Numbered from the stretch's first letter, positions 1,479-57,372 are shown. The stretch: 64,000 bases of DNA from Gammaproteobacteria bacterium (GCA_029287575.1 JARFQW010000064.1:1-64000); one strand, 5' to 3'. The notes: generated from the letters alone by a model not told the origin. Made by a program: numbers and translations.

Positions 1479-4418
1479 ATGACCCCACCCAGTGGCGCAG
1501 GCCCCGGCGCCAGCCCAAGCGAGCTTCTGCAAACCGGCATCGGCCATCATCAGGCCGGACGGCTGGTCGAGGCCGAGCGCGTTTACCGGCGCATTCTCCA
1601 GACGGCCCCGGGCCACCCGGATGCGCTCCATCTGCTGGGTTTGATCGCTCATCAGGCGGGCCAGACCGACGCGGCCCTGCATCTCATAGGCGACGCGATC
1701 GCGCGAAACCCCGGTGCTTCGGGATACCACGCGAACCTGGCCATGATCCTCGAAACCGCGGGCCGGGCCGAGGACGCCGCGAGCGCGGCCCGTCGCGCTC
1801 TGGAACTCGCTCCCGCGCATGCCGGCGCCATGGCCACCCTGGCGAACAGCCTGCGGGCCATGGACCGGCACGGTGAGGCGATCAGCTGGTACGAGCAGGC
1901 CGCCCGCGCCGCGCCCGGCGATCCCGCGGTCTGGTCGAATCTCGGGTCCACCCTGGACATCCTGGGCCGGCACGACGAAGCAGTGGAGGCGTTCACCCGC
2001 GCGGTCGCGCTGGCTCCGGGTCAGGCGGGTCTCCAGTCGAACCTGGGCAGCGCGCTGAAATCCGCCGGCCGGCTTGCCGAGAGCATCGCCGCCCACCGGG
2101 AGAGCATCCGCGTCGATCCGGGATTCGCCGCCGGCCACACGAACCTCGCCACGGCTCTGCTGGAAGCGGGGACTCCCGACGAGGTCCCCCAGGTCCTGGA
2201 GCGGGTCTTGGCGCTCAGGCCGGGCGACCGCAAGGCGCTGGCATTATCGGCGATCGCGGCGGGCGCCCGGGGAGACGTCGCGCAACGGGACCGGCTGCTG
2301 GATTTCGAGGGCCTGATGGCCGACCGGCAGTGGGATGCGCCCGCGGGCTACACCAGCATGGAGGCCTTCAACGACGCGCTGGCCCATGAGGTGCTCGCCC
2401 ACACGACGCTGACCTGGGAGCCGGCTTCGAAGTCGACGCGCCGGGGCAGTCAGACCCGTGAGCTGTCCGGCACCGCGGGCGGCGCGGTGGCCACCCTGGA
2501 ATCCATGGTCTCCGAAGCACTGGCAACGTACCTGGCAAACGTCCCGCCGGACGCCGACCATCCCTACCTGTCGACGGCCCCGGATGACTGGACCCTCACC
2601 TTGTGGGCGACCGTCCTGGAAGAAGGCGGTCACCAGGCCCCGCATATTCATCCCACCGGCTGGCTCAGCGGCGTGTATTACGTCCAGGTACCCGCCGCGG
2701 CGCCGGGCAGCGAGCCCGAAGCCGGCTGGATCGAGTTCGGAAGACCGCCCGCGGTCATGGAACCGCTCGGCGGGTTTCCGTTGCGCTTGTTTGAGCCGAC
2801 CGAGGGCCGCATGCTGCTGTTCCCCTCCTACTTCTATCATCGCACTCTGCCCTTCTCCGGCGCCGGACAACGCATCAGCATTGCGTTCGATCTCATGCCC
2901 GCCAGCGAACCGGCGGCTGTCGCTGCGGGTGTCGCTGCGGCCACGCTCACCGGCCAGGAAGCCGCCAGCGAGCTGGCCCGGGCCGAGCAGCTGCTTCGCG
3001 ACGGCGACCTCGAATCCGCGGAGCAGGTCCTGGCCCGGCTGCCCGGGGACCTGGAGCCCGCCGGGCGGGTCCACCAGCTCCGCGGCCTGGCGGCCCACCG
3101 CCGCGGCCGTCTCGACGACGCGGCAGATCACATGCGCCGGGCGGCGCAGCTGGCAACGCACAATCCGCAGTTCCAGCGGGACCTGGGCGTCCTGCTGCAC
3201 AAGGCCGGTCGGCTCGAAGAAGCCGCCGAGGCGTTCGAATCGGCGGCCGGCCTCGAAGGCGACGGCATCGCGTCCCTGCTGCAACTGGCCAACGTGTACA
3301 GCGACCTGGGGAACGAGACAGCCGCCCGGGATGCCTACAGCCGGGCGCTGGCCAAAAACCCCGCCAGCGGCACCGCCCATTACGGCCTGGCGCTCCTGAA
3401 ACGCTTCGAACCCGACGATCCGCAGATTGCCCAGATCCGCCATGCGCTGACTGACGCCGGCGATACCAACGACACCGCCTCCCTCTGGTATGCCCTGGGG
3501 CGAGCACTCGACCAGACCGGGCAGACCGATGCAGCGTTTGCGGCGTTCGAGCAGGCCAATCGCATCAAGCGAACGCTGACCGACTTTTCCATCGAGGCGG
3601 AGCGCTCCAATACGCGCCGGATCATCGACAGCTTCCCGGCACCGCTGTTCGGACGGCCGGAGCTGCCCGGTTTCCGCTCCGACCTCCCGGTGTTCGTCGT
3701 CGGCATGCCGCGATCCGGAACCACCCTGGTCGAGCAGATTCTCGACAGCCACCCCCAGGTCCACGGCGCCGGTGAGCTGAACGATCTCTGGCGGACGGTG
3801 GCCGGGGTCACCCGTTCGCTGCCCCCGGGCCAGTCGCTTCCGGAGGCCGTCAGCCTGGTCCCGGACGCCGCCTGGCGCTCGCTGGGAGAACAGCTCGTGG
3901 AACGCATGAGCGGGTATGCGCCCCAGGCCCTGCGCGTCGTCGACAAGCTGCCCTTCAACTACACCCTGCTGGGCGTCATCCGGCTCATGCTGCCGGACGC
4001 CCGGATTGTCTACTGCCGCCGCGACCCCCTGGACACCTGCCTGTCCTCTTACATGACCTCGTTCGGCAATGACCGGGGATTTACCTGCGATCTCGCCGAG
4101 CTGGGCGAGACCTGGCGCCTGCACGCCGAGCTCATGGATCACTGGTCCCGGGTTTTGCCCGGCGGAGTGTTTACCATGGTTTACGAAGACCTGGTAACAG
4201 ATCTTGAGGGCCAGTCACGCCGCCTCGTGGACGCCCTTGGGCTGGAGTGGTCCGATAGCTGTCTCGATTTCCACCGCAACACCCGACCGGTCGTGACCGC
4301 GAGCATGACCCAGGTCCGACGGCCTGTTTACACTAGCTCCATCGGCCGCTGGCGGCGTTTTCAGGACCATCTCGGGCCCTTGATCACCGCCCTCGGCGAT
4401 CGGGCCAGCCAAGCATAG
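1479..4418 (+). CDS. TPR - 2OG-Fe(II) oxygenase - TPR - sulfotransferase fusion protein
   Basis: A 979-residue cytoplasmic-looking protein without signal peptide. Residues about 12-270 are TPR repeats. Residues about 285-475 match the putative 2OG-Fe(II) oxygenase family with an HxH pair (H389/H391 in HIHPTGWLSGVYYV), a distal His (H454, YFYHRTLPF) and a 2OG-binding Arg (R465). A second TPR block spans about 495-700. Residues 735-975 are a sulfotransferase: 5'-phosphosulfate loop GMPRSGTTLVEQ (742-753), 3'-phosphate motif CRRDPLDTCLSSY (846-858) and the usual QVRRPVYTSSIGRWRRF tail. Such enzymes use PAPS to sulfate a hydroxyl or tyrosine. Having a hydroxylating fold in the same chain suggests sequential or paired modification, which is inference. 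A stand-alone oxygenase of the same type starts 8 nt downstream. The ATG at 1479 is chosen because the TPR block starts right after it; its ribosome site is weak. Confidence 0.9.
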   Translation: MTPPSGAGPGASPSELLQTGIGHHQAGRLVEAERVYRRILQTAPGHPDALHLLGLIAHQAGQTDAALHLIGDAIARNPGASGYHANLAMILETAGRAEDAASAARRALELAPAHAGAMATLANSLRAMDRHGEAISWYEQAARAAPGDPAVWSNLGSTLDILGRHDEAVEAFTRAVALAPGQAGLQSNLGSALKSAGRLAESIAAHRESIRVDPGFAAGHTNLATALLEAGTPDEVPQVLERVLALRPGDRKALALSAIAAGARGDVAQRDRLLDFEGLMADRQWDAPAGYTSMEAFNDALAHEVLAHTTLTWEPASKSTRRGSQTRELSGTAGGAVATLESMVSEALATYLANVPPDADHPYLSTAPDDWTLTLWATVLEEGGHQAPHIHPTGWLSGVYYVQVPAAAPGSEPEAGWIEFGRPPAVMEPLGGFPLRLFEPTEGRMLLFPSYFYHRTLPFSGAGQRISIAFDLMPASEPAAVAAGVAAATLTGQEAASELARAEQLLRDGDLESAEQVLARLPGDLEPAGRVHQLRGLAAHRRGRLDDAADHMRRAAQLATHNPQFQRDLGVLLHKAGRLEEAAEAFESAAGLEGDGIASLLQLANVYSDLGNETAARDAYSRALAKNPASGTAHYGLALLKRFEPDDPQIAQIRHALTDAGDTNDTASLWYALGRALDQTGQTDAAFAAFEQANRIKRTLTDFSIEAERSNTRRIIDSFPAPLFGRPELPGFRSDLPVFVVGMPRSGTTLVEQILDSHPQVHGAGELNDLWRTVAGVTRSLPPGQSLPEAVSLVPDAAWRSLGEQLVERMSGYAPQALRVVDKLPFNYTLLGVIRLMLPDARIVYCRRDPLDTCLSSYMTSFGNDRGFTCDLAELGETWRLHAELMDHWSRVLPGGVFTMVYEDLVTDLEGQSRRLVDALGLEWSDSCLDFHRNTRPVVTASMTQVRRPVYTSSIGRWRRFQDHLGPLITALGDRASQA

Positions 4419-4426
4419 GGAAAACC

Positions 4427-5077
4427 ATGGAGATAAAGCCCCTGTTCGCCATGCCCCTGGCCGTCGAGCAGATCCCCGAGCACGAGGCCCTGTGCGCCGA
4501 ACTGGCGCCACTGTTCCTCGACAAGGAAGCCGCCGGCGACCGCTGGCGGAACGAGACCCGGAGGGAGACCCAAAAGGGCGCGTTGTTCGAGAGCCGCTTC
4601 GACCTGTTCGATTGGGAGGATCCGCCGGTACGCCGCGTCGCCGGTTTTTGCCACGCGGCCGTCGCACGCCTGGTCACGTCCCTCTCCGACTACGACGCCG
4701 GGGAGCGGACCCGCCTGAGCTTTGATTACCACGCCTGGTTTCACGTCACCCGCACCGGCGGCTACCAGGGCCTGCACCACCACCAGAACGCCAGCTGGTC
4801 GGGGATTTTCTGCGTCGACCCGGGGGACGATCTGCCCGACCGTCCCGACAGCGGGCTGGTACGCTTTCATGATCCGCGCTGGTGCAGCGCCCATTACATG
4901 GACGCGGGCAACCGGCGGCTGAATGCCCCGTTCCATCATGGCGGATATGACGTTCGCCACCGGGCGGGCCAGCTCGTGGTCTTCCCCTCCTACGTCATGC
5001 ACGAAATCTTTCCCTACGTCGGCGAACGACCGCGAATTGTGGTCGCCTTCAACTGCTGGGTGCGCATGAAACCATGA
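4427..5077 (+). CDS. Stand-alone putative 2OG-Fe(II) oxygenase
   Basis: A 216-residue protein of the same putative 2OG-Fe(II) oxygenase family as the domain fused in the upstream gene. The iron-ligand region GLHHHQNASWSGIFCV (H117 and H119) aligns with HIHPTGWLSGVYYV of the fusion protein, with the same eight-residue spacing from the first His to the Ser-Gly. The distal His is H192 (YVMHEIFPYVGERPRIVVAFN) and the likely 2OG-binding Arg is R203. The expected chemistry is hydroxylation of a protein or small-molecule substrate in the cytoplasm, using Fe(II), O2 and 2-oxoglutarate. There is no signal peptide. The gene lies 8 nt after the fusion gene, and its stop overlaps the next start by 4 nt (ATGA), so the three genes form one transcription unit. 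The substrate is unknown. Confidence 0.85.
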   Translation: MEIKPLFAMPLAVEQIPEHEALCAELAPLFLDKEAAGDRWRNETRRETQKGALFESRFDLFDWEDPPVRRVAGFCHAAVARLVTSLSDYDAGERTRLSFDYHAWFHVTRTGGYQGLHHHQNASWSGIFCVDPGDDLPDRPDSGLVRFHDPRWCSAHYMDAGNRRLNAPFHHGGYDVRHRAGQLVVFPSYVMHEIFPYVGERPRIVVAFNCWVRMKP

Positions 5078-6678
5078 CCAACCCGCTCGCCATCCTGCAG
5101 GCGCTGGCCATGGAGAGCCGGTCCAATCCCGCAGCCGCCCTGGCTCGCTGCGAAGCCATGCTGGCCCGGTCGCCACAGCTCGTGCCGATTCTCTGCCTGG
5201 CCGGCCGGCTGCATCGGGAACTGGGTAATCTGCCCCGGTCCCGAGAGCGTCTCGAACAGGCCCTGGCCCTTGCCCCGCAGACCCCGGCAGCCCTGCTGGA
5301 ACTCGGCATGGTGGAACTGGCTTCCGGACGACCGTCCCGGGCGGCGGAGTATTTCGAGCGTCACACCGCGGAGAATCCGGACCGGGCCCAGGGCTGGTAT
5401 CAGCTGGGTGTCGCAAGGGAAATGGGCGGCGCCTGGCCGGAGGCAGCCGACGCCTACCGGAAGGCCATCGGCCACGGTATCAGCGACCCTCGAGACGTGC
5501 GTCTTCGTCTGGCGGGCGTGCTCGCCCGTGCCGGGCGTCCGGCGGAGGCAGCCGACGAATTCCGCCAGGTGCTGGCCGACGCGCCCGAGGACGTGGGCGC
5601 GCACATGGGCCTGGGAATGGTGGCTGCGGCCCTGGGCGACCGGAAGGCCGCCGAGGCCGCCTTCCGGGCCGCGCTGGTCCTCGATCCGGACCTGGCACTG
5701 GCCCGGCAGCAGCTGATCCATCTCAAGACGGTGGACAGCCCGGATGACCCGGACCTCGCGGGTCTCGAGGCCCTCGCCGGTCGGGAGGATCTGCCCCCGG
5801 AGTCCCGCGAACACGCCGGCTACGGCCTGGCAAAGGCATACCTGGACCTGGACCGCCCCGGCGAGGCCTTCGCCGCCGCGGCGCGGGCCAACGCGGACCG
5901 GGAGGCCCGCGTGGGGCTGTTCGATATCCCGGCCTGGCGGCGCCGCGTGGCGGACATTCGCGTTTCGGAATCGGAAGACCCGGCGCGGGGCTCACCCCGA
6001 GGCGGTCCGGCGCCGGTTTTCCTGCTCACCGCGCCGCGCGCCGGGGCCACACTGCTGGAACAGATGCTGACCTCGCTGCCCGGACTCGAATCCCGGGGCG
6101 AGGACCCGGTAATCGAGCAGATTCTGGCGACCCACGCCCCGGACTGGCCCCACGTCCCGCCGACCGATGCCGCCCTGGACGCCATGCGGGACGCCTATGC
6201 GGCCGGCGGCCTCGATTCGGTGAACAAGCTGCCGGGCAACATCCGCCTTGCCGGCATCCTAAGGCGACTGTTTCCCGAGGCCCGGTTTGTGCGCGTGACC
6301 CGGGACATCCGTGACACCGGCCTGTCCATGTTCCTTCGGGATTTCCCCGACGCCGCCCGTTTCACGACCGACCTGGAATCCATTCGCGCCTATCTGGAGG
6401 GCGTCGAGGCACTCGCCGACCGCTGGGACGAACTGTTCGGGCAGGCAATTCACAAGGTGGCGTACGAGTCCCTGGTCGCAGAACCGGAGACCACGCTTAA
6501 GGGCATTCTCGAGTTTCTGGGCCGGCCCTGGGATCCGGCCTGCCTGGAACCCGCCGGCAATACGGGGCCGGTGAGCACCCTGAGCCATGCCGAGGTGCGC
6601 CGGCCGGTGCATACCGGCGCCGTCGGCCGCTGGCGGCGCTTCGAGACGCTCCTCGGCCCCCTGACAGATCCGGACTAG
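5074..6678 (+). CDS. TPR-sulfotransferase with altered phosphosulfate loop
   Basis: A 534-residue protein. TPR repeats fill about residues 15-280 and a sulfotransferase domain about 312-530. The 5'-phosphosulfate loop reads TAPRAGATLLEQ (319-330) instead of the common GMPRSGTTLLEQ: the Ser and the first Thr are both Ala. The 3'-phosphate region VTRDIRDTGLSMFLRDF (408-424) and the closing AEVRRPVHTGAVGRWRRFE motif are kept. Start and upstream stop share ATGA, which implies translational coupling to the oxygenase gene. The loop changes may lower PAPS binding or change specificity; the fold is clear but activity is not. The gene converges on the minus-strand sulfotransferase operon with only 13 nt between stop codons and no visible terminator. 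Confidence 0.88.
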   Translation: MTNPLAILQALAMESRSNPAAALARCEAMLARSPQLVPILCLAGRLHRELGNLPRSRERLEQALALAPQTPAALLELGMVELASGRPSRAAEYFERHTAENPDRAQGWYQLGVAREMGGAWPEAADAYRKAIGHGISDPRDVRLRLAGVLARAGRPAEAADEFRQVLADAPEDVGAHMGLGMVAAALGDRKAAEAAFRAALVLDPDLALARQQLIHLKTVDSPDDPDLAGLEALAGREDLPPESREHAGYGLAKAYLDLDRPGEAFAAAARANADREARVGLFDIPAWRRRVADIRVSESEDPARGSPRGGPAPVFLLTAPRAGATLLEQMLTSLPGLESRGEDPVIEQILATHAPDWPHVPPTDAALDAMRDAYAAGGLDSVNKLPGNIRLAGILRRLFPEARFVRVTRDIRDTGLSMFLRDFPDAARFTTDLESIRAYLEGVEALADRWDELFGQAIHKVAYESLVAEPETTLKGILEFLGRPWDPACLEPAGNTGPVSTLSHAEVRRPVHTGAVGRWRRFETLLGPLTDPD

Positions 6679-6691
6679 GCTGCGCCGGGAC

Positions 6692-8575
6692 TTACAGCGT
6701 CAGGATATCCGCGGGCAGCCAGGGCTCGTAGTTCCGCCAGCGATCGATGGACGACGTGTACACGGACTGTCGGACCTGGGCATGGCTGGCCGTGTGCGCG
6801 GTGCGCGCCAGAAGGTGAAATTGCAGACACCCGGGGTGCCACTGAAGGCCGAGAAATTCCAGAAGCGCCCCGAGTTCTGACCGCGGGTCGGTCACCATAG
6901 CCTCGTAGGACACGGTGTGAGTTTCCAGCCCCGGGGCCTCCAGCCACCGGTCCGCAAGCGCCCGATAGCGGGCCAGCGCTTCGGCCAGCCAGTCCCAGCG
7001 GCAGGCAAACGCCAGCGCCGGATCCATGAAATCGGTGAAATAGCAGGACAGGGCCGTGTCCCGGGGATCCCGACGGCAGAGCACAACCCGCGCCCGGGGC
7101 AGCAGACGGGCAGCCAGGGGCAGGTGCAATACATTCAGAGGCATCTTGTCCGTGAACACCTTGCCGCCGGGTACCGGTTCACGACGATAGACGCGCGCGA
7201 GCCGGCCGGCCTCATCTGCCGTCAGCGGTCCGGCCCGGTTTTCGAGCTCCATTGCGATTCGACCAAGCTCGGCGCGTTCGCCGCCCGCGATCACCCGCGG
7301 GTGCGCCGCCAGCATCTGTTCCACGAGCGTCGTTCCGGAACGGGGCATGCCGACAATGAGCGTGACGCCCTCCCCGGCGCCCGCCCCGGCCGGCGCCGCC
7401 GGCCGCTCCACGGCGACGTTTTTCGTGGGCTCGAATGCCGCTGGATTCCAGCGCGTGGGATTGAGGGCATTGCCGGCGCTGTAGGACGCGAAGGCCTCCT
7501 CGTAGCGGCCCAGCCGGTCGAGCACGTCACCCTTCGCGAATGCGAGCCGGCGCCGGATCGCCGGCTCCGCGCCAACCTTCCGATCCACGTTCTCCAGCAC
7601 GACAGCGGCCTCGTCGTTGCGGTGCAGACGGCCGAGCAGGCGTGCCCGCGCGATGGCCACGGGCCCCTCGTCGTCCGGGCAGCCGGGGCCCAGCAGGTCG
7701 AGGCCCTCCGGGTAACGGCCCGTCCACTCCATCAGCTCTGCCAGTCCGGCCAGGGCGTTCGTGTGCCCGGGATTGATCGCGAGCGCGGAGGTAAAGCCGC
7801 GCTCGGCGGCCGCGACATCTCCACCCGCCTGGTCCAGGCCGGCGAGAAGCGCAATCACGTCCGGGTCGTCGGGACGGGCGGCCAGCAGCCCGCGCACTCG
7901 CGTGCGCGCCTCGTCCACCCGCCCGAGTTCCTGGAGCAAGCGCGCGTATCCGGTCACCGCCTGGCGATGTTCCGGGTGCCGCTCGAGGACTTCGCCGTAC
8001 CGGGTCATGGCCCCTTCGATGTCTCCCGCCATGGCGAGGGCAGCGGCAAGGTTTGCGGTGACCCCCGGGTGCCCCGGACGCAGGGCCAGGCTGCGCTCGA
8101 ATGCGCCGACCGCGCCAGCGGCCTCTCCCTCGGCATGCAGCAGCACGCCCCAGCGATTCCACAGCACCGGGTGGTCGGGAGACGCCTCGACCGCCACCCG
8201 GAGCGTGGCGCGGGCTTCCTCGGGCCGCCCGAGGCTCTCGTGGGCCCCCGCCGCCAGGAGCCGGGCCTCCGCGACCAGCGGCGGAGGCCAGGCCGCCGAA
8301 CCGCTCAGCAGATCCAGCACTTCGCCGTACCTGCCCTGCTCGCTCGCCACCCGCGCCAGAAGAAGACGTGCCGGGGGCCCGCCGGTGGCCTGAATCGGCC
8401 GCAGCACGGCCTCCGCCTCATCCAGCCGCCCGTCCTCGCCCAGGAGCTGGGCCAGCAGCAGCGCGGCGGGTACTGCCGCATCAGCCGAATTCAGGCACTC
8501 CCGGTAAAGCGTTTCCGCGGATTCCCGGTCGCCCTGGCGATGAGCCCGCCGGGCGGCCTTCAGGCGCAGATCCAT
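6692..8575 (-). CDS. TPR-sulfotransferase
   Basis: A 627-residue protein when started at the ATG at 8575. An open frame extends to 8758, but the extra 61 residues are low-complexity and lie inside the end of the upstream gene. The chosen start is 14 nt after that gene's stop, with a TGAGG-like ribosome site. TPR repeats cover about residues 10-375. The sulfotransferase domain at about 403-620 has a canonical loop GMPRSGTTLVEQ (409-420), TDKMPLNVLHL, CRRDPRDTALSCYFTDF (500-516) and SHAQVRQSVYTSSIDRWRNYE. This is the last gene of a minus-strand operon of four sulfotransferases preceded by a secreted TPR protein and an FG-GAP protein. The substrate is unknown; PAPS dependence follows from the family. 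Confidence 0.9.
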   Translation of the reverse strand: MDLRLKAARRAHRQGDRESAETLYRECLNSADAAVPAALLLAQLLGEDGRLDEAEAVLRPIQATGGPPARLLLARVASEQGRYGEVLDLLSGSAAWPPPLVAEARLLAAGAHESLGRPEEARATLRVAVEASPDHPVLWNRWGVLLHAEGEAAGAVGAFERSLALRPGHPGVTANLAAALAMAGDIEGAMTRYGEVLERHPEHRQAVTGYARLLQELGRVDEARTRVRGLLAARPDDPDVIALLAGLDQAGGDVAAAERGFTSALAINPGHTNALAGLAELMEWTGRYPEGLDLLGPGCPDDEGPVAIARARLLGRLHRNDEAAVVLENVDRKVGAEPAIRRRLAFAKGDVLDRLGRYEEAFASYSAGNALNPTRWNPAAFEPTKNVAVERPAAPAGAGAGEGVTLIVGMPRSGTTLVEQMLAAHPRVIAGGERAELGRIAMELENRAGPLTADEAGRLARVYRREPVPGGKVFTDKMPLNVLHLPLAARLLPRARVVLCRRDPRDTALSCYFTDFMDPALAFACRWDWLAEALARYRALADRWLEAPGLETHTVSYEAMVTDPRSELGALLEFLGLQWHPGCLQFHLLARTAHTASHAQVRQSVYTSSIDRWRNYEPWLPADILTL

Positions 8576-8589
8576 GGGCCCGGGCGGCC

Positions 8590-10533
8590 TCAAGGGTTCA
8601 GCCCCTTCGGCCCCGGGTCGCGGGCGGCGACATCCGCGAGGGAGCCAAGCATGTTCTCGTAGTGCCGCCAGGCACCGATTTCCCGATCGTGCAGGGGTTC
8701 GAATACCGGACGATCCCCGGTTCGCGACACATCGATGCGGTGGAATTCGAGCACGCACGGATCCCAGGGCAGTTCCAGAAAACCGAGCACCCCTCGCAGC
8801 GTCTGCTCCGGCTGATGGACCAGGTTCTCGTAGTACACCTCATGCAGCGGCGTCACTTCGGCGCGACGCCAGAGGCCCATCACCCGCTCATAGACAGACA
8901 GCCAGCGACCCAAGGCCTCGATGGAGGTCGTGAACGCGAGGCTGCGTCCGGCAAAGTTTTTGAACAGGCAGCGCAGGGCGAGATCCGCCGGGTGCCTGTG
9001 CAGACCGATGACGCGCGCGCCGGGCAACAACATGCCGATCAGCCCGATGTTGAGAAAGTTGAACGGCATCGTATCCAGGATGCGCGGCGCCGCCGCACCG
9101 GCCGCCTTGAGATAGCGGGCGCCCTCCCGGGCCAGCCGTTCTTGCGTCAGATTTCTTGCGGCAACAGGCCACTGCGGCAAATCGGCGGCGATATCGCCCA
9201 GCGCGGTCAGCTCCCCGGCCGCTGCGATCTCGGGATGCGCCGCCAGCGCCTGCTCCAGGAGACTCTTTCCGGCCCGGGGCAAGCCCACGATCAGAACCGT
9301 GCCGCGACCGTCCAGCCCGGAGCGGGGCAATTCCCCCGAGCCCTCCGCGAAGACCCGTTCCAGGTCGGCGGCCGCTGACTCCAGGCGAGCCAGCTCCTCG
9401 TCCGGGTCCCAGCCCGCGTCTTGCCAGTCCCCGCGACGGTCCGCGTTGGCGCGGACGAGCTCGGCGGCGGCCTCTTCATGGCGACCCGCTTCGTCCAGGG
9501 CCTGGGCAGTGGAGAACGCCGCCTGCCGGCGGGCGTCCGCCGGCGCGGCCGTGTCCCGGCGCACGGCCGCGAGTTCCGCCAGGGCGTCTTCGTGGCGGCG
9601 GAGCCGGCGATACAGCCGCGACCGGTGCAAACGGGTTTCCGGAGCATTGCCCTCCAGCAGGGCCAGGGCCTCGTCGAGGCGGCCATCGCGCTCCCGCCGG
9701 CCGGCGAGGCCCGCCCGGGCAATGGCGTGATCGGGCGCCAGCGCCAGCGCCTCGTGGAGCAGACGTTCACCCGCTTCCGCCTGGCCGTTGGCGAGGAGCA
9801 GCCGGCCCAGGTTCGCGCGCGCGTCGGCCAGCCGCGGATCCAGCTCTATGGCCTTCCGGTAGGCCGCCTCTGCCCCGGTGAAATCCCCCAGGTACTGGCG
9901 TGAAGCGCCGAACCAGGTCCATCCCGGCGCACTGCCCGGCGCCAGCTCGAGGTGCCGGCGCAGGGCCGCGGCGGCCTCCCGGTAGCGCCCGAGCGAATTC
10001 AGCACGCCGCCCCGGTGCAGCCATCCGCCGGCGAACGCCGGGGCCATGGACGTGACCGCCTCGAGCAGCTCGCCGGCCTCGGCGGTCCGGCCCTGGGGCA
10101 TCAGCGCCAGGGCCAGGTTATAGCGTGCGGCCCAGGCCCGGGGCTCCATGCTCGCGGCCCTGCGGAAACAGGCTTCGGCGACCGCAAGATCCCCCAGCTG
10201 GCCGGCGACCTCGCCAAGCCCGTTCAGCATCGATGCGTCTCCCGGCTGGCCCCGCGCCGCCGCGTGCCGGCAGAGCTGCAGGGCGGCCGCGCCCTGGCCT
10301 GATCGCGCGAGCAGCCGGGCACGATCCGCGACCGCCCGCGGCATCACGGCCGGGTCTATCGACGCATTGACCGAAAGCGCGCCTTCCAGGTCACCGCCGG
10401 CCTCGTAAACCCGCGCGAGCAGATGCCGGGCCGCCATGTCGTCCGGCTGACCGGCCAGACAGGCTTCGGCCGCCTCGCGGGCCTCGGCGAGCCGGCCGGC
10501 GCGGAGCGCCGCCAGTCCGGATTCGACGCTCAT
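8590..10533 (-). CDS. Divergent TPR-sulfotransferase, probably altered or lost PAPS chemistry
   Basis: A 647-residue protein from the ATG at 10533, which overlaps the upstream stop by 4 nt. The open frame to 10740 is rejected because it runs into the preceding gene. TPR repeats cover about 5-370. The C-terminal region keeps the sulfotransferase layout, but key motifs have drifted. The loop is GLPRAGKSLLEQ (417-428), with Lys where Thr is usual. The TDKMP segment reads LDTMPFNF. The 3'-phosphate motif is HRHPADLALRCLFKNF (512-527) rather than CRRDPxDTxLSCYF. The ASHAQVRRPVY tail is lost (GDRPVFEPLHDREIGAWRHYE). It may use another donor, be inactive, or scaffold its three intact neighbours. Confidence 0.85.
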   Translation of the reverse strand: MSVESGLAALRAGRLAEAREAAEACLAGQPDDMAARHLLARVYEAGGDLEGALSVNASIDPAVMPRAVADRARLLARSGQGAAALQLCRHAAARGQPGDASMLNGLGEVAGQLGDLAVAEACFRRAASMEPRAWAARYNLALALMPQGRTAEAGELLEAVTSMAPAFAGGWLHRGGVLNSLGRYREAAAALRRHLELAPGSAPGWTWFGASRQYLGDFTGAEAAYRKAIELDPRLADARANLGRLLLANGQAEAGERLLHEALALAPDHAIARAGLAGRRERDGRLDEALALLEGNAPETRLHRSRLYRRLRRHEDALAELAAVRRDTAAPADARRQAAFSTAQALDEAGRHEEAAAELVRANADRRGDWQDAGWDPDEELARLESAAADLERVFAEGSGELPRSGLDGRGTVLIVGLPRAGKSLLEQALAAHPEIAAAGELTALGDIAADLPQWPVAARNLTQERLAREGARYLKAAGAAAPRILDTMPFNFLNIGLIGMLLPGARVIGLHRHPADLALRCLFKNFAGRSLAFTTSIEALGRWLSVYERVMGLWRRAEVTPLHEVYYENLVHQPEQTLRGVLGFLELPWDPCVLEFHRIDVSRTGDRPVFEPLHDREIGAWRHYENMLGSLADVAARDPGPKGLNP

Positions 10534-12497: not shown

Positions 12498-12518
12498 TCC
12501 CGTGACGGATCGCCGCGG

Positions 12519-16029: not shown

Positions 16030-17809
16030 CGTCGGGTTTCCCCTGGCCGCGGAGCAGGTCGTGGTACGCGCCCGGCCGCAGCCGGTCGAAACGCTCCCGG
16101 GCCCCGTCCGGCCAGACCACGTGGGCAGTCAGCGGCGCCTCCCCGCGCTCTCCCAGTCCCACCAGCAGGCGCGGATCGCTGGAGGACGCATAGCTGCCGT
16201 CGGACCCCGCGCGGCGCAGGACACGCCGGTCGCCCACGTCGAGCACGAGGGATGCACCATAAAGGTCGCGGCCCCCGCCGTCGGCAAGCCGGAAGCCGAT
16301 CCAGTCGGCGTCCTGGCCCACTTCGTTGATCAGCAAGCGGGCGGGGCCCGCATTGTTGGCGATCAGCACATCGGTGTCACCGTCATTGTCCACGTCCCCG
16401 AAGGCGGCACCCCGGCTTACCAGCGCAACCTCGAAGGCCTTGCCGGCTTCCCCGCTCACCTCCCGGTAACGGCCCTGTCCCTCGTTGCGAAACAGCTGGT
16501 TGGCCTGGCGAAGAGGGAACGGATCGCCGGCCAGCAGCTGTTCCTCGATCCGGGTCACCGCGCCGTTGACTGCGAGAATGTCGAGCCAGCCGTCGTTGTC
16601 GTAGTCGAACCAGGCCGTGCCGAACCCCGTGTACTGGAAACTCGGGTTGGCCAGCCCCATCGCCAGGGTGCGGTCCTCGAACCAGCCTTCACCGTCGTTG
16701 ATGTACAGCGTGTTGGTCTCGCGGGCGAGGTGGGTCATGAACAGGTCCTCGTCCCCGTCGCCGTCGAAGTCGGCCGCATCAACGCCCATGCTGGCTTCCG
16801 GGGACCCGTCCATGTTGACGCCCACGCCGGCAAGCATTGCCTCGTCGCTGAATGTCCCGTCGCGACGGTTGATCCACAGCTGGTTGGCCACGCCGTCGTT
16901 GGCGACGTAGAGGTCCTGCCAGCCGTCGGCATTGAAATCGGCCACGACCACGCCGAGAGCACCGCCGAACTTCGCGCGTATTCCGGCGGCGGCGCTGACG
17001 TCGGTAAAGCGCCCGTCTCCGTCGTTGCGGTAAAGCGTGTCGACGTCCGGCTTGTAGACGAGCGGGGAGCAATAGTCCCGCGCACTGGTGGAGGACCGGC
17101 ACGGCTTGGCGTTGTCGAAGGTATAGCGGACATAGTTGCCCACGTAGAGATCCAGGTCGCCGTCGCGATCGTAGTCGATCCACGCGGCGCTCACGCTCCA
17201 GCGCTCGTCGCCGACGCCGGCGGCCGCCGTCACGTTCTCGAACCGGCCCTCGCCGAGATTCCGCCACAGCTGGTTGGCGCCGAAGTTGGTGACGTAAAGG
17301 TCCACCCGTCCGTCATTGTCGAAGTCGGCGGCCGCGACGCCCATCCCGTAGCCGCCCGAGCGCAGGCCGGAACCGCCGGTGACGTCCGTGTAGCGAACCT
17401 GGGTCTGCCCGTCCAGGGTCACGCTGTCATTGCGGTAGAGCCGATCCACCAGGGGCTTGTCATCGGCGGGCGGAAAGACGGCATCGGCGAGACGCTTCCC
17501 CGGTCCCAGCATCACGCCCTGAACGAGATAGGCGTCCAGGTCGCCATCGCCATCATAGTCGAACAGGGCAGCACCCGAACCCATCATTTCGGGGAAATAC
17601 AGCTCCCCGCTCATGCCGTTGAAATGGACGAAATCCGGCCCGCCGGACGACTCGGAAAACAGGCTACCCGACGACGCCCGGACCACCGCCGGCGCCAACG
17701 CGACGATGCCGAGCAGCCCGGCCCCGAGCGCGAAACGGGCTGACCCCGCCCGCAACTTCGAAAGAGAACCCGGGCGCTTGTCGTCCTGGTGTGTCTGAGA
17801 TTGCTTCAT
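16022..17809 (-). CDS. Secreted FG-GAP/VCBS beta-propeller with ASPIC/UnbV domain
   Basis: A 595-residue exported protein. A long charged n-region precedes a hydrophobic stretch (about 26-43) and a likely cleavage near VRA-SSG. The body contains seven or so Ca-binding loops of the DxDxDGxxD type (DYDGDGDLDAY, DFDNDGRVDLYVTNFG, DYDRDGDLDLYVGNY, DFNADGWQDLYVAND, DFDGDGDEDLF, DYDNDGWLDIL, DVDNDGDTDVL). These are typical of integrin-like FG-GAP propellers. Residues about 500-590 match the ASPIC/UnbV domain of the CRTAC1 family (GRDLYGASLVLDVGD, RRAGSDGSYASSSDPR, VVWPDG). It is the first gene of the operon that also carries four sulfotransferases, and diverges from another sulfotransferase-like gene with 64 nt between starts. 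The function is unknown; extracellular or periplasmic ligand or protein binding is likely. Confidence 0.92.
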   Translation of the reverse strand: MKQSQTHQDDKRPGSLSKLRAGSARFALGAGLLGIVALAPAVVRASSGSLFSESSGGPDFVHFNGMSGELYFPEMMGSGAALFDYDGDGDLDAYLVQGVMLGPGKRLADAVFPPADDKPLVDRLYRNDSVTLDGQTQVRYTDVTGGSGLRSGGYGMGVAAADFDNDGRVDLYVTNFGANQLWRNLGEGRFENVTAAAGVGDERWSVSAAWIDYDRDGDLDLYVGNYVRYTFDNAKPCRSSTSARDYCSPLVYKPDVDTLYRNDGDGRFTDVSAAAGIRAKFGGALGVVVADFNADGWQDLYVANDGVANQLWINRRDGTFSDEAMLAGVGVNMDGSPEASMGVDAADFDGDGDEDLFMTHLARETNTLYINDGEGWFEDRTLAMGLANPSFQYTGFGTAWFDYDNDGWLDILAVNGAVTRIEEQLLAGDPFPLRQANQLFRNEGQGRYREVSGEAGKAFEVALVSRGAAFGDVDNDGDTDVLIANNAGPARLLINEVGQDADWIGFRLADGGGRDLYGASLVLDVGDRRVLRRAGSDGSYASSSDPRLLVGLGERGEAPLTAHVVWPDGARERFDRLRPGAYHDLLRGQGKPDGD

Positions 17810-17873
17810 CGTGGTCCGTCGTACCTCTCGTCGTCCGGGCCGACCCGAAGCCCCGTGCTAACATGCCCGCGCC

Positions 17874-18980
17874 ATGGCGGAGCCCGAAACACCCCGATCC
17901 GATCCGCGCCTGGAACGCCTGACGCTGACCCCTGAGCTGTTCCTCAAGGACTTCAATCCCGACCGGGATCTGGCCATCCTCTCGCCGATGACCGAGGCGA
18001 GCTACCGCCAGTCCGTCTTCATGGACGACCGTCTGGTACGCGGCGGGGCGCGGGACCTGGCCTTGAGTCTCAACGCGCTGGGGCAGGTCTGGCAGCGCAG
18101 CTCCAGTCCCGCCCGTGCGGTGCATTATATCGGCCACATGGGGCATTGCGGCTCAACCCTGCTTTCCCGGCTTCTCGGCGAACTCTCCGGTTTTCACTGC
18201 CTGCGGGAGCCGCCGGTCCTGGTCGGCCTGTCCCGATCGCTCCGCCGCATCGACACGCCGGGTTTCCCGCTGGACGGATACCGCTGGGGACAGCTGCTGG
18301 AACTCGCGGCGCTGATGATGCAGAGAACCTGGCGCCCGGACGACGTGGCGGTGGTCAAGCCCACCAGCGCCGTGGGCAACCTGTTGCCTGCGCTCATGAA
18401 CCGGACCGGGAACGAGCGCGGAGTTCTGCTCTATGTCCACCTGGAGGACTGGCTGCCACTGATGCTGCGCCCCGAGGTCCGGCGGGAGACCCGGCTCTTT
18501 GCCCGGGACTTCCGGCTCGCGGATTTTCGCGAGGCTGCCGGGGCGACGCTGGAAACCCCGGATTCCCCCGGCGCCCTGGCGGCCATGACCTGGCTGCTGC
18601 AGGCCGGCGAATTCGCCAGGCTGCTGCGTCATCCGCAAACCGCCAGCCGGGTCCGGCTGCTGCATCTCGACACGCTGCTCGAGCATCCGCTCGCGATTCT
18701 GGCCCGGCTTTGCGACTGGTTCGGAAAGCCACAGACCGAGGACCGGCTGGAGGCGGTGTGCGCGAGGCTCCTGGGTGCGGACGCCAAACGTCCGGGCCAG
18801 GCCTACGGTCCGCAGGCGCGGCGCGCCGATCTCGAGCGCGCCCGGCTGGAATCGGCGGCCGAAGTCGAAGCCGGCATAGCATGGGCCCACCGAACCGCCG
18901 GCCAGGTCGAGGCGTTTGCCGGCCTTATCGAGGCGTTCCCGGCCGCCACGGCTCTGCCAGCGCCTGCTCCAGCGGCTTGA
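17874..18980 (+). CDS. Sulfotransferase-like P-loop protein
   Basis: A 368-residue protein without TPRs or signal peptide. The motif YIGHMGHCGSTLLSRLLGE (about 85-103) is a phosphosulfate-loop variant in which GHCGST replaces PRSGTT. It is followed by a region like sulfotransferases (VKPTSAVGNLLPAL, LLYVHLEDWLPLML, LLHLDTLLEHPLAILARLCDWFG). The family is usually annotated only as sulfotransferase-like. The gene stands divergent from the FG-GAP operon, and its 3' end overlaps the convergent TPR-sulfotransferase by 56 nt. The C-terminus is Ala/Pro-rich (ALPAPAPAA), and this tail lies in the overlap. Activity is uncertain because the 3'-phosphate motif is not obvious. Confidence 0.7.
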   Translation: MAEPETPRSDPRLERLTLTPELFLKDFNPDRDLAILSPMTEASYRQSVFMDDRLVRGGARDLALSLNALGQVWQRSSSPARAVHYIGHMGHCGSTLLSRLLGELSGFHCLREPPVLVGLSRSLRRIDTPGFPLDGYRWGQLLELAALMMQRTWRPDDVAVVKPTSAVGNLLPALMNRTGNERGVLLYVHLEDWLPLMLRPEVRRETRLFARDFRLADFREAAGATLETPDSPGALAAMTWLLQAGEFARLLRHPQTASRVRLLHLDTLLEHPLAILARLCDWFGKPQTEDRLEAVCARLLGADAKRPGQAYGPQARRADLERARLESAAEVEAGIAWAHRTAGQVEAFAGLIEAFPAATALPAPAPAA

Positions 18981-20652
18981 GGAATTCGGCATAAGGGCGA
19001 TGGCGGCCGACCCCGCGGGCATTGAGCGGCTGGCGGACCTGGAAAAAACTCGCCGTAATACTGGCCGGGGCCTGCTCGTGAAAGCGCAGGCAGGCGGGAT
19101 TCCAGGGCAGGTCCAGGAACTCCAGCAAGCGGCGGGTCTCGGTCTCCGGCTCGGCTACCAGGGCTTCATGCTCGATTCGGGTAAACGCCAGCGGCAACAC
19201 GCGCCGCCAGTGATCCATGAGGTGGTCGGTGGCTTGCCGGTAAAAGCCGATGTGGCCCAGATCGCGAGTGTAGTCCAGGGACTCGGCCTGGAAATCCTGG
19301 GTGAAACAGGACCAGCCCGCATCCATCGGATCGCGTCTTGCCTCGATGATCCGGGCATCCGGGAAGAGCAGCGCGACAAGCCCCAGGTGCAGCACGTTGC
19401 CGGGCATCTTGTCGGTAATGCGCAGGTCACCCGGCTGTATTCGCTCGTCTGACAGGTACGTCCGGGCAATGGCGGCGAGGCGCTCTACCGGGCAGCCGGC
19501 AAGACACTCCGGCCATGTCAGGCCATCCGCCGCGAACGAGCGCACGGCACGGAACAGGCCGGGCCGCTCGCCCAGGGCGCGGACCGAGGGATGCGCACCC
19601 AGGATCTGTTCCAGCAGCGTCGTTCCGGAGCGCGGCATGCCGACGATGAACACCGGCCGCTGCTCGCCGGCCTCCAGCCCCGGCAGGCTCGCCAGGCGCT
19701 CCGGGGTAAAAAACTCGATCAGCGTTTCCACAGCCCGCCGGAACTTCCCGGGCTGGAACGTGGCCCCCTTGGTCCGGTTGGCCAGCGCATAGCTGTGGAA
19801 GGCCTCCCGGTGACGGCCCAGGTCGTCCATCAGGTCGCCGCGCACGTAGGCGAGCCGCGCCGCCTCCGGATGTCCCTGCGGCAGCGGCGGAACCCGGGCG
19901 AGAAGTTCCAGGCTTTTCTGCGGCTCCCGCAGGCGACGCAGCATGCGCGCCCCGGTAATCGCCGCGGACGGGGGAACCGGCTCCTGGGCAAGCGCGTCGG
20001 CAATCAAGTCCAGACCTTCGCGATAGCGGCCCTTCAGCTCCTCGAGCTGGGCCATGCCCAGCCGCACGCGAGGATGTTCGGGGTCGGCATTCATCGCCTG
20101 CTGGTAGGCGCGCTCGGCGCCGGCGTAGTCCCCCATGAGCTGGCACACGCCCCCGAGGTCAGCCAGCGCCTCCGCCGGGTTGCGGGACAGGTCGGCCGCC
20201 CGGCGGTAGGCCTCCACCGCGCCGTCCAGATCGCCGCGGGCCCGGGCCAGGTCCGCGCTGGCAAGCCAGACAATCGGATCCTCCGGCGCCAGCCGGCGGG
20301 CCCGGGCCAGATATTCGGCCGCCTCTTCGGCGGGCCGCAGCGTTGCCAGCTGCAGCCACGCACGGGCCAGGCCGGGATCCAGCACCGTGGATTTCCGGAA
20401 AGCCGATTCGGCCTCCTGCATCCGCCCGCTGGCCCGCAGCACCTGGCCAAGCAGAAGCCATCGAGCTGCCGTGTCGGGATCCAGGCCAATGGCCCGCTGC
20501 GCGGCGGCCTCGGCCTGCCGCAGGCGTCCCGCCCGATAGGCCGCCTTTGCCAGCGCCTCCCAGGCCGCGGTGTTTTCCGGCTCGGCGGCTGCTGCCGATT
20601 CCAGATCCGTCAGCGGCGGCATTTCGGGGGGCGGAGAAGCGGAGCCGTTCAC
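18925..20652 (-). CDS. TPR-sulfotransferase
   Basis: A 575-residue protein. TPR repeats cover about 25-305 and the sulfotransferase domain about 332-570: loop GMPRSGTTLLEQ (338-349), ITDKMPGNVLHLGL, ARRDPMDAGWSCFTQDF (438-454), and ITASFFQVRQPLNARGVGRHRPYAEF. The start is GTG at 20652, ten nt after the stop of the prolyl-hydroxylase-like gene; an ATG at 20622 is the alternative. It is the last gene of a three-gene operon (sulfotransferase, oxygenase, sulfotransferase). The stop lies inside the convergent sulfotransferase-like gene. PAPS use is expected from the family; the acceptor is unknown. Confidence 0.9.
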   Translation of the reverse strand: MNGSASPPPEMPPLTDLESAAAAEPENTAAWEALAKAAYRAGRLRQAEAAAQRAIGLDPDTAARWLLLGQVLRASGRMQEAESAFRKSTVLDPGLARAWLQLATLRPAEEAAEYLARARRLAPEDPIVWLASADLARARGDLDGAVEAYRRAADLSRNPAEALADLGGVCQLMGDYAGAERAYQQAMNADPEHPRVRLGMAQLEELKGRYREGLDLIADALAQEPVPPSAAITGARMLRRLREPQKSLELLARVPPLPQGHPEAARLAYVRGDLMDDLGRHREAFHSYALANRTKGATFQPGKFRRAVETLIEFFTPERLASLPGLEAGEQRPVFIVGMPRSGTTLLEQILGAHPSVRALGERPGLFRAVRSFAADGLTWPECLAGCPVERLAAIARTYLSDERIQPGDLRITDKMPGNVLHLGLVALLFPDARIIEARRDPMDAGWSCFTQDFQAESLDYTRDLGHIGFYRQATDHLMDHWRRVLPLAFTRIEHEALVAEPETETRRLLEFLDLPWNPACLRFHEQAPASITASFFQVRQPLNARGVGRHRPYAEFLKPLEQALAEPWRPGTPR

Positions 20653-20662
20653 GACCCGCTGC

Positions 20663-21298
20663 TCATCGAATCGGGTAGGAGAAACGCCACGCGTCTTCGG
20701 GATCCCGGAAATTCAGATAGCTCGTCACGATGAACTTGTCGCCCGAGCGCGGTGCTTCCCCGCGATGCTCGTACATCCACAGCGGCGGCAGGATCACCAG
20801 GCGCCCGCGCCTCGCCGCAATGTTCAGATCCAGCGCGGGAAAGGCCGTCTGGCCTCCGTCCGCAACATCGTTGAGATACCAGAGAAACGCCAGCACCCGC
20901 ACCGACGTTTTCGCATCGAAGGCATCCACGTGCAGGGGGAAATGATCGCCGTCACCCGTGCTCGCCTCGTAGCGTTTGAGCTTGAGATGCTCGAAGGCGG
21001 AAGGAAACCTCGCGCCGAGGGATCGCGCGGCCGGCTGCGCCGCATAGTCCTTGAGAGCCACCGCCATGCTGTTCAGAAATGTTTTCTCGACCGCTTTCCA
21101 CTCCGGCTCCGGCCGATGGGTGATCAGATACTCAGTCCAGGTATTCTGGCCAGGCCGCCTGAAGTGATGATCCGGGTCCTTCTCGAAGAGCTCGATCACA
21201 TGGTCGCAGAACGGCGCGTCCAGGGCGCCGTCGTAAACGCGGACGAGATCGGCCAGCCGCGGCCCGCCGGTCTGCTCCCGCGTCGGACTAGCGTTCAT
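20663..21298 (-). CDS. Prolyl 4-hydroxylase-like 2OG-Fe(II) oxygenase
   Basis: A 211-residue protein of the P4Hc type, distinct from the two oxygenase domains at 1.5-5.1 kb. The iron-binding triad is visible as HxD (H123-V-D125 in FPLHVDAFD) and a distal His (H178, YEHRGEAP). K188 (GDKFIVTSYLNF) occupies the 2OG-carboxylate position. The intervening VLAFLWYLNDVADGGQTAF is the standard core strand pair of prolyl hydroxylases. There is no signal peptide. It overlaps the upstream TPR-sulfotransferase by 11 nt and is followed 10 nt later by another, so hydroxylation and sulfation enzymes are made together. Members of this fold hydroxylate proline, arginine or small molecules; which applies here is unknown. 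Confidence 0.87.
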   Translation of the reverse strand: MNASPTREQTGGPRLADLVRVYDGALDAPFCDHVIELFEKDPDHHFRRPGQNTWTEYLITHRPEPEWKAVEKTFLNSMAVALKDYAAQPAARSLGARFPSAFEHLKLKRYEASTGDGDHFPLHVDAFDAKTSVRVLAFLWYLNDVADGGQTAFPALDLNIAARRGRLVILPPLWMYEHRGEAPRSGDKFIVTSYLNFRDPEDAWRFSYPIR

Positions 21299-23417
21299 AG
21301 CCGAAGGCCCGTAGATGAGGATCCAGGCGCCCGAGCGCGGGTTCGAGAAAGCCCTGGTAGCGTTTCCAGCGATTGCTGGCCCTGCGATAGAGCGCCTCCG
21401 TTACCTGGTGATAGCTGTTGGTGTTGATCTGGCCGCGTGCCTCGGCGGTGCGGTTGAAGTCCAGTACGTCCGGATCCCACGGCACATCGAGAAACGTCAG
21501 CAAGGCGCGGGCCTCCCGCTCGAGGTCGTCCACCAGCCGCTCGTAGCGCACCTCGTGCACCGCCAGCGGCAGCTTCTCCCGGTAGAGATGCCAGAGGGCC
21601 ATCACACCGTCGTAGACACGAGCGGTCCCGTCGAGGGTCAGGAAGTTGGTGAACGCATCGGTGGGCATGTAGTGCTGCATGAAGTTGGACAACACGACGT
21701 CGCAGGGATGGCGCAGCCCGAACACATAGCGTGCGTCCGGAAAGAGCCGCCACAGCAGACCCACCTGGAAGGACCGGATCGGCATCTTGTCCACGACCAG
21801 CGCGCCGCCGGTATCCCCGGCAGCAGCATCCAGGGCCGCGAAGTATTGCCCCCGCAGGTCGATAATCGCCTCCGCGTCCAGGTCGGCGAGGCTTGCCGGA
21901 TAGCCTCCGGGCCGACGGGCCAGCGTCTCGACCACATCGAGAATCGTATTTTGCTCTTCGACCACCCGGATGGCCGGATGGCCGTCAAGAAGCAGGTCGG
22001 TGAGGGTCGTGCCCGATCGCGGGAACCCGAGCATGAAGACCGGTGACGGCCGTTCGGGCGCGGGCGCCGGTGGCCAGGCCAACGGATCCGCGGACTCGAA
22101 ATAGTCCCGCATCGCCTCGAGCATGGCGAGGAAACGTTCCGGCGAGGCCTTCACCGCCCGCGGCGTGCGCGACGCGAGGTCGTTGGCGGCTTCGAAATGC
22201 CGCCAGGCCGCCTCGGTGTCGCCCGTGCGGTCCAGCAGATAGCCGAGCTGATAGTGGTACTGCTCGGCCAGTCTTGGCGGCAGCCGTTCCGCCGGCACGC
22301 TGCGCAGGCGACGCACGCCGGCCTCGGCGTCGCCGTCCCTTCGGGCGAGCTTGGCCGCTTCAAGATTGAGACGCGGGTGCGCCGGCGCCTGCTCGAGTCC
22401 GGCGGTGAGCGCCTCCCGCATCTCGTCGAGGCGGTTGGACTCCTCATAAAGCGCCGCCAGTTCGGCATAGACATCCGGGTTGGCGGGTGCCAGGCGGCGG
22501 GCCTCCAGGAAGGCTGATTCGGCCTCCTCCGTGCGCCGCTGTTCCCCGAGCACGAGGCCGAGGTTGAGGTGGGCCGGGGCGTGGTCCGGGTCGACGGCCA
22601 GGGCCTGGCGATAGGCTGCGGCCGACTTCTTGAAGCGGCGGATGGTGTGATACGCGACGCCGAGATTCACCAGCGTCGGAACATTGCCGGGTTCGCTCTG
22701 CAGGCTGGCCTCGAAGGCCTCGATCGCCTCTTCGTACTGACCCCGGGACATCAACACCGTGGCCAGGTTCCGGCGGGCACTGACCAGATCCGGATCGATG
22801 CGCAGCGCATGCTCAAAGGCATCCCGTGCTTCGTCCAGTTCGCCCATGGCGCGCAGGACGTGGCCGAGATGATTGTAGGCGCGGGCGAAATCGGGACGGA
22901 TGATCACCGCCCGGCGCAGGGCATTGGCGGCGTCCTGGTAGCGGCCGAGATTGTTCAGGGCCCGGCCGAGATTGTCGAAGGCACCGGCATAGTTACGGTC
23001 CAGTTCCAGCGCCTTGAGGATGGCTTCCATGGCCCCCTCGGCGTCTCCGGCCGCCAGCAGCACGGCGCCCAGGTTGTTGTGAGCCACGGCGAAATCCGGC
23101 TGCATGCCGATGGCCTGAGCGTAAAGTTCGGCGGCCTTGTCGAAACGGCCCCGAGCCTTGAAGATGTTGCCCAGGCTGTTGACGAAGCTCGCCTGAAGCG
23201 GCTTGGCGGCAATAGCGCGACGGATCAGCGACTCGGCCTCGTCCAGGTTCCCGGCACGCGCATCGATATTGCCGAGGGAATGCAGCGCCTCGGCGTGCTC
23301 GGGGGCCTCCCGGAGGAGCTCCAGGAAACGGGCTTTCGCAGCTTCCAGGTCACCCTGGCGCTGCAGATCCTGGGCCTCCCGGTAACGGGCTTCGACAGTG
23401 GCTGAGTCGGCGTTCAT
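21288..23417 (-). CDS. TPR-sulfotransferase with long TPR array
   Basis: A 709-residue protein. About ten or more TPRs fill residues 5-415, with the consensus more regular than in the other paralogues (AHNNLGAVLLAAGD, AFDNLGRALNNLGR, AYNHLGHVLRAMGE). The sulfotransferase domain begins near 458: loop LGFPRSGTTLTDLLLDGHP (463-481), VVDKMPIRSFQVGLL, and 3'-phosphate motif LRHPCDVVLSNFMQHY (568-583). The closing region INTNSYHQVTEALYRRASNRW differs from the QVRRPVYTSSIGRW tail of the other members, so it belongs to a different subfamily. It is the first gene of the three-gene operon. An upstream inverted repeat (AAAGGG/CCCTTT, 23455-23479) is near the start, but its role is unknown. Confidence 0.9.
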   Translation of the reverse strand: MNADSATVEARYREAQDLQRQGDLEAAKARFLELLREAPEHAEALHSLGNIDARAGNLDEAESLIRRAIAAKPLQASFVNSLGNIFKARGRFDKAAELYAQAIGMQPDFAVAHNNLGAVLLAAGDAEGAMEAILKALELDRNYAGAFDNLGRALNNLGRYQDAANALRRAVIIRPDFARAYNHLGHVLRAMGELDEARDAFEHALRIDPDLVSARRNLATVLMSRGQYEEAIEAFEASLQSEPGNVPTLVNLGVAYHTIRRFKKSAAAYRQALAVDPDHAPAHLNLGLVLGEQRRTEEAESAFLEARRLAPANPDVYAELAALYEESNRLDEMREALTAGLEQAPAHPRLNLEAAKLARRDGDAEAGVRRLRSVPAERLPPRLAEQYHYQLGYLLDRTGDTEAAWRHFEAANDLASRTPRAVKASPERFLAMLEAMRDYFESADPLAWPPAPAPERPSPVFMLGFPRSGTTLTDLLLDGHPAIRVVEEQNTILDVVETLARRPGGYPASLADLDAEAIIDLRGQYFAALDAAAGDTGGALVVDKMPIRSFQVGLLWRLFPDARYVFGLRHPCDVVLSNFMQHYMPTDAFTNFLTLDGTARVYDGVMALWHLYREKLPLAVHEVRYERLVDDLEREARALLTFLDVPWDPDVLDFNRTAEARGQINTNSYHQVTEALYRRASNRWKRYQGFLEPALGRLDPHLRAFGYER

Positions 23418-23546
23418 GGGCTACGGGGAATCATCGGACTCGGTGGGCGGTCCAAAGGGATTCGGATTATCGCCCTTTCCCTACGAGGCGCAACCGGCCG
23501 GCCGAAATTCCCGCGGCCGCTCCCGGAGCGAAAAGGAGACCCGGTT

Positions 23547-23978: not shown

Positions 23979-24073
23979 CCGGCGAGTTTCGAGCGCTCGT
24001 CTGGACATTGCCCGGGGCGAGGCGTTTATCCTATGCCGAGCAATCGTGCAGGAAATCTCAAAGGAACGCGGCC

Positions 24074-28608: not shown

Positions 28609-28612
28609 GATA

Positions 28613-33240: not shown

Positions 33241-33242
33241 GG

Positions 33243-42879: not shown

Positions 42880-42922
42880 CGGCCGCGTTTTTCTGCCGCC
42901 GCTCGGGAACGTCGATGCGGCC

Positions 42923-56676: not shown

Positions 56677-56734
56677 CCGCCGGCGCGCGCCGTCAACCCG
56701 GACGTTCGTCTGACTCATTCGGAGCCTGCCGAGG

Positions 56735-57274: not shown

Positions 57275-57372
57275 CAGGCATTCTCCCGGCGTGTGATCGT
57301 GGCGCGTCTGTCGAACAACGTCGTTTCCGGGCCGGGCCTCCGGCCGGATACACGGCCAAGAATACTTGACGG

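Follow-up and report, generated by a model that had tools for sequence, protein, structure and literature searches.

The window analysed here is a stretch of 64,000 nucleotides from a member of the Gammaproteobacteria (GCA_029287575.1, JARFQW010000064.1:1-64000), corresponding to the start of contig C139. As had been proposed from the sequence alone, positions 1479-23417 encode eight TPR-sulfotransferases, all of which carry a PF13469 domain scoring above the Pfam cut-off together with TPR arrays. ST1 (1479-4418, plus strand) is a 979-aa fusion of TPRs, a Fe/2OG oxygenase domain (PF13759), further TPRs and a sulfotransferase domain; the others are ST2 (5074-6678, plus), ST3 (6692-8575, minus), ST4 (8590-10533, minus), ST5 (10530-12482, minus), ST6 (12519-14462, minus), ST7 (18925-20622, minus) and ST8 (21288-23417, minus). 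A genome-wide search returned 28 PF13469 match segments in the whole 3.75-Mb genome; about 0.2 would be expected in 22 kb, so that eight genes lie far above chance. The three Fe/2OG domains claimed earlier are likewise recovered by Pfam: one within ST1, one in the stand-alone 2OG5 (4427-5077, plus; PF13759) and one in 2OG3 (20663-21298, minus; PF13640), which is syntenic in three related genomes (G002, G003 and G005). A stand-alone sulfotransferase, STlike (17874-18980, plus), converges on ST7 and overlaps its end. The secreted TPR protein secTPR1 (14455-16029, minus) and the secreted FG-GAP/ASPIC propeller FGGAP1 (16022-17809, minus, starting at 17809; PF13517 and PF07593) belong to the families ascribed to them, and both carry signal peptides. 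The reported gene overlaps are also present, at 5077/5074, 10533/10530, 14462/14455, 16029/16022 and 21298/21288. Genes were called by a simple script based on codon usage instead of a curated annotation, and some starts are uncertain. Three minus-strand frames (17664-18146, 18153-19022 and 23481-24008) were judged spurious and discarded because of atypical composition or the lack of a family match.

The limits of 1479-23417 set by the sequence-only reading proved too narrow: a TonB-dependent receptor to the left (3-1250, plus) and a block to the right (25223-37462, minus) share a syntenic locus with the island in sister genera. The receptor, of which the window holds the C-terminal part (PF00593, E 4e-44) with the N-terminus past the contig end, was absent from the earlier gene list and is the partner that most widely follows the oxygenase. 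The right-hand block, all on the minus strand, starts with secTPR2 (25223-26878), an exported paralogue of secTPR1 (34% identical; Pfam and signal peptide), and two more CRTAC1-like propellers, FGGAP2 (26875-28557, 68% identical to FGGAP1) and the diverged FGGAP3 (28613-30409). These are followed by a membrane-anchored pentaheme c-type cytochrome with C-terminal TPRs (30466-33240; PF13435, five CxxCH motifs, start at either 33150 or 33240), a TPR/FG-GAP lipoprotein with the probable lipobox LLVAAC (33243-36554) and a carbon-nitrogen hydrolase of the nitrilase family (36551-37462), syntenic in relatives. The module of propeller, cytochrome, lipoprotein and nitrilase (28613-37462) is conserved as such. 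To the right of the island, positions 38618-45026 hold molybdate-type ABC transporter genes, XdhC and a MoaA-like radical SAM protein, an ordinary molybdenum cofactor neighbourhood. Further on, positions 53207-59505 hold, in close proximity, genes for a TPR-S protein, a small stand-alone PF00685 sulfotransferase and a TIR-TPR protein, with no PADLOC match.

The same cluster was sought in other genomes, mostly metagenome assemblies. It occurs in conserved order in G002 and G003, sister genera of the same family as the window genome, and in part, as a shorter version, in G028 and G051 of another family. The order in G002 and G003 is nitrilase, lipoprotein, cytochrome, propeller, secTPR2, ST8, 2OG3, ST7, STlike, ST6, an extra sulfotransferase, ST5, ST4, ST3, ST2, 2OG5, ST1 and TonB receptor; the nitrilase is present in the G002 locus, whereas in G003 the contig breaks off within the lipoprotein gene. 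G002 also has the propeller-secTPR1 pair between STlike and ST6. On the single-contig chromosome of G005 the parts are found at separate places: receptor-ST1-2OG5-ST2-ST3, a sulfotransferase array, 2OG3-ST7-propeller-secTPR1 and the cytochrome block. The window genome has a ninth TPR-sulfotransferase at a contig end of C96 (G000:C96:83-1927, L012); by synteny with G002 and G003 it may flank the receptor, so that C96 would abut the left end of the window.

The catalytic domains of the eight sulfotransferases, searched as a profile, have the animal tyrosylprotein sulfotransferases TPST1/2 as best solved relatives (E 3e-28 to 2e-26), followed by polyketide-synthase sulfotransferases (about 1e-15), SULTs (2e-8 and weaker) and heparan 3-O-sulfotransferases (about 1e-4). 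In the alignment the counterpart of the catalytic Glu99 of TPST2 is invariant in all eight, the P-loop Arg is conserved, and the counterpart of the catalytic Lys158 (DK motif) is present in seven, with Thr in ST4. The PAPS-binding P-loop PRSGTT/S and the 3'-binding motif RxxxDxxxS occur in 6/8 (ST1, ST3 and ST5-ST8), whereas the fast-evolving ST2 has the variants PRAGAT and RDIRDTGLS. TPSTs differ in being Golgi-lumenal membrane enzymes without TPRs, and Arg101, a residue beyond the catalytic Glu with which they read acidic substrate motifs, has no conserved Arg counterpart in the aligned window proteins; we do not claim these as members of the tyrosylprotein sulfotransferases proper. ST6 combines a TPST2-like catalytic part with TPRs whose leading natural protein match is O-GlcNAc transferase (OGT). 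An N-terminal TPR superhelix feeding a transferase domain is common to OGT and the island enzymes; the latter move sulfate, not sugar, and the catalytic domains are unrelated.

STlike, singled out earlier as sulfotransferase-like, lies in a family that no curated model matches: NCBIfam gives no match, and the genome-wide PF13469 search did not hit it. The assignment is nevertheless borne out by its AlphaFold model (pLDDT 88), which among solved structures matches human TPST1/TPST2 best. The motifs GHxGSTL, REP and KxTS are invariant, and orthologues are found in G002, G003 and G005.

In a maximum-likelihood tree of 80 sulfotransferase domains, each of the eight window enzymes clusters with its G002 and G003 counterparts, joined by that of G005 if there is one, rather than with its neighbours. 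Paralogues in the window are mostly 27-36% identical, orthologues 34-58%. The presence of separate orthologues for all eight in sister genera indicates that the paralogues are old and not interchangeable. ST4 had failed a motif filter, and we considered whether it and its sister group might be dead enzymes. We rejected this and report them as a variant subfamily because the alignment shows a shared lysine swap: ST4 (P-loop PRAGKS) and the extra sulfotransferase of the relatives form sister clades in which, in every genome checked, the P-loop reads PR[SA]GKS, DK has become DT and the 3'-site Ser is lost. In effect a lysine has shifted out of the DK motif and into the P-loop, both in the window (8590-10533) and in G002:C53:67954-69825, and the change is kept across genera.

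The PF13759 domain of 2OG5 scores above the cut-off, and its model (pLDDT 93.5) has a double-stranded beta-helix fold with conserved putative metal-site histidines. Its best structural matches are two uncharacterised structures, followed by Pseudomonas prolyl-4-hydroxylase and PHD2, suggesting a prolyl-hydroxylase-like fold. Both PF13759 domains of the window (4427-5077 and within 1479-4418) share an invariant HxH...H...R, the usual Fe/2OG pattern being HxD/E...H...R. The fusion architecture of ST1 is the same in G002, G003, G005, G028, G015 and G056. Fold is no proof of substrate, yet both enzyme types point to polypeptides, and the combination of a sulfotransferase domain nearest to TPST with an oxygenase nearest to prolyl hydroxylases favours protein substrates. 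A second copy of 2OG5 is found in the f1 genomes checked (L084:10794-11465, equal to G000:C26:85794-86465, L085 and L087), and its fetched flanks contain no TonB receptor; by eye, its neighbours are L,D-transpeptidase-like upstream and amidase-like downstream.

Homologues of 2OG5 are found nearly all in Gammaproteobacteria, and their most consistent neighbour is a TonB receptor. Carriers of 2OG5 among culturable relatives include the isolates Pleionea sp. CnH1-48, Kangiella aquimarina, Sinimarinibacterium flocculans and Dokdonella immobilis. The receptor adjoins 13 of 39 gene copies, compared with 31 of 564 other genes at the same loci (Fisher p 6e-7), and lies at most two genes away in 19/39 versus 68/564 (Fisher p 1e-7). 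The remaining 20 of 39 copies have no TonB receptor within two genes, which counts against the link. The pairs often lack a nearby sulfotransferase and also occur in genomes without the island. The window receptor is 58-62% identical to those at the same place in G002, G003 and G005. An intrinsic terminator-like site separates it from ST1 (1292-1307), and a similar stem-loop with a T run is seen in the gap after the receptor in all three relatives; receptor and ST1 are therefore probably on separate transcripts. The arrangement resembles the pairs CciT-CciO, PiuA-PiuC and Fiu-YbiX, in which a TonB receptor gene and a cytosolic Fe/2OG dioxygenase gene stand side by side and are co-conserved. 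It differs in that the island oxygenase is of the PF13759 family, that no clear Fur box is seen and that many sulfotransferases are added; CciO, PiuC and YbiX we take to be PF13640-type oxygenases.

The island enzymes are predicted to lack signal peptides, while the propeller, TPR, cytochrome and lipoprotein products are predicted to be exported from their signal peptides or lipobox. FGGAP1 matches human CRTAC1 (cartilage acidic protein 1; 9etn) with E 1e-21 and shares with it the FG-GAP propeller and ASPIC domain; unlike CRTAC1, it is bacterial and paired with an exported TPR protein. This pairing is strict: the propeller adjoins a secTPR partner in all 21 propeller hits among relatives. Acid-flanked tyrosines, at about 2 per 1000 aa in the propellers versus 0.5 in other proteins, were considered as a substrate signature and rejected, since the FG-GAP calcium motif DYDxDG, in which Phe can replace Tyr, accounts for them.

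In our view the conserved block most likely serves to decorate proteins of the cell surface chemically ahead of their export, something almost unknown in bacteria. In its specific form, to which we give a probability of about 0.48, the enzymes would carry out TPR-guided sulfation and hydroxylation of envelope polypeptides in the cytosol, in the service of the TonB receptor and possibly of the propeller proteins. Like the TPR arm in OGT, the TPR superhelix would dock a polypeptide in extended form, here one still awaiting export; the TPST-like domain would transfer sulfate from PAPS onto it; the Fe/2OG domains, with 2OG5 acting as a prolyl-hydroxylase-type enzyme, would hydroxylate it; and export of the finished product would follow. 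The cytosol is suggested as the site because PAPS is available there, APS kinase being present in the genome. The adjacent receptor would most probably be the functional partner and might itself be a client, with the propeller/TPR pair as the next candidate. We place the receptor first because its linkage to the oxygenase is the widest association found and because in Caulobacter the receptor CciT requires the dioxygenase CciO (PMC12004947). Gene content, predicted compartments, orthology, folds, synteny and 2OG5-TonB linkage are observed, whereas polypeptide substrates, the residues modified and the client protein are inferred; as proposed earlier, the targets may form one class of exported proteins. 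The missing Arg101 counterpart, the terminator after the receptor and the split of the locus in G005 count against this explanation. A bolder version, which we consider doubtful, sees in the island a bacterial counterpart of OGT and TPST together: a set of eight to ten TPR-guided enzymes, sulfotransferases and hydroxylases without redundancy, would write a multi-site pattern of sulfated and hydroxylated residues on the receptor and/or the secreted propeller partners before export, and so tune receptor binding.

Alternatively, the enzymes might make or process a small compound or peptide bearing sulfate and hydroxyl groups, such as a metallophore, for uptake through the TonB receptor. Receptor-oxygenase pairs of the CciT-CciO, PiuA-PiuC and Fiu-YbiX kind do exist for iron uptake, and a TonB receptor, a sulfotransferase and a cytochrome occur together in methanobactin operons. 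However, the genes scanned include no NRPS, PKS, precursor peptide or exporter and none of the core biosynthetic families of a RiPP or methanobactin-like cluster. The gaps hold no conserved small ORF that could be a precursor: the cross-genome protein matches found there represent an extended N-terminus encoded by the cytochrome gene and short similarities immediately upstream of the nitrilase. Upstream of the receptors there is no Fur-like box in G002 or G003 and a weak one in G005, and we rejected iron control of the receptor on the absence in the first two. Eight TPR arrays would also exceed the needs of a small acceptor. Taken together, this makes import of such a product unlikely.

The island might also be a loose neighbourhood of three independent modules with a common locus but no joint function. 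Modules found alone in other genomes show that it joins three units able to live apart, namely receptor and enzymes, propeller and TPR protein, and cytochrome, lipoprotein and nitrilase. TonB-2OG5 pairs occur alone. Among 350 genomes drawn from the class, 10 have the cytochrome, mostly with a propeller, and no sulfotransferase in the fetched flanks; G005 has its modules apart. The expectation that propeller and TPR genes always accompany sulfotransferases did not hold, since a sulfotransferase lies within 10 kb in only 9 of 21 propeller hits; the pair stands apart from sulfotransferases in G004, G014, G027 and one of its two places in G005. Nevertheless, the nine hits compare with 1.2 expected. 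This enrichment is indicative, since some of the loci were chosen by eye, one split gene accounts for two of the hits and the hits are non-independent. The 12 hits without a nearby sulfotransferase must further be set against a gene order that three genera share and another family shares in part. We therefore consider a mere neighbourhood quite unlikely, and retain the modification of envelope polypeptides before export as the preferred reading.

Action of the sulfotransferases on a surface polysaccharide or lipid, with the oxygenases working elsewhere, is distinctly improbable: other sulfotransferases of the genome do adjoin nucleotide-sugar genes (contigs C167 and C96), but the scanned island genes include no glycosyltransferase, flippase or polymerase, the flank in G002 and G003 is an OmpA-family gene and not sugar genes, and the catalytic domain is nearer to TPST than to heparan sulfotransferases. 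The sugar genes beside the ninth TPR-sulfotransferase on C96 are not conserved in relatives, and we discarded them as polysaccharide context.

To our knowledge, bacterial protein sulfation rests essentially on one worked-out case, RaxST-RaxX. RaxST is a single sulfotransferase without TPRs. For Xanthomonas, PAPS-dependent sulfation of an exported polypeptide encoded beside the enzyme is reported (PMC6637879). The Rax system has a dedicated small precursor and an exporter, whereas no RaxX-like precursor was found in the gaps of the island and no dedicated exporter among its genes. Our full-text literature searches found no paper on TPR-sulfotransferases and nothing relevant on the island itself. 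With eight sulfotransferase orthologues separately maintained next to a TonB receptor and the exported propellers, the locus provides a concrete short list of possible substrates, and it links two questions, the targets of TPR-sulfotransferases and the frequent adjacency of TonB receptors and Fe/2OG oxygenases.

PF13469 sulfotransferases, most of them in TPR-sized frames, are present in 207 of 236 genomes of the order. Other families of the order have compact clusters of a TonB receptor with TPR-sulfotransferases, STlike, 2OG5 or PF13640 oxygenases. One such locus (L146:3274-16960, G109:C18) contains a PF13640 oxygenase, a TPR-sulfotransferase, two 2OG5-like genes, a TonB receptor, a TPR-aspartyl/asparaginyl hydroxylase, another TPR-sulfotransferase and STlike; the TPR-aspartyl/asparaginyl hydroxylase was found once among these compact clusters.
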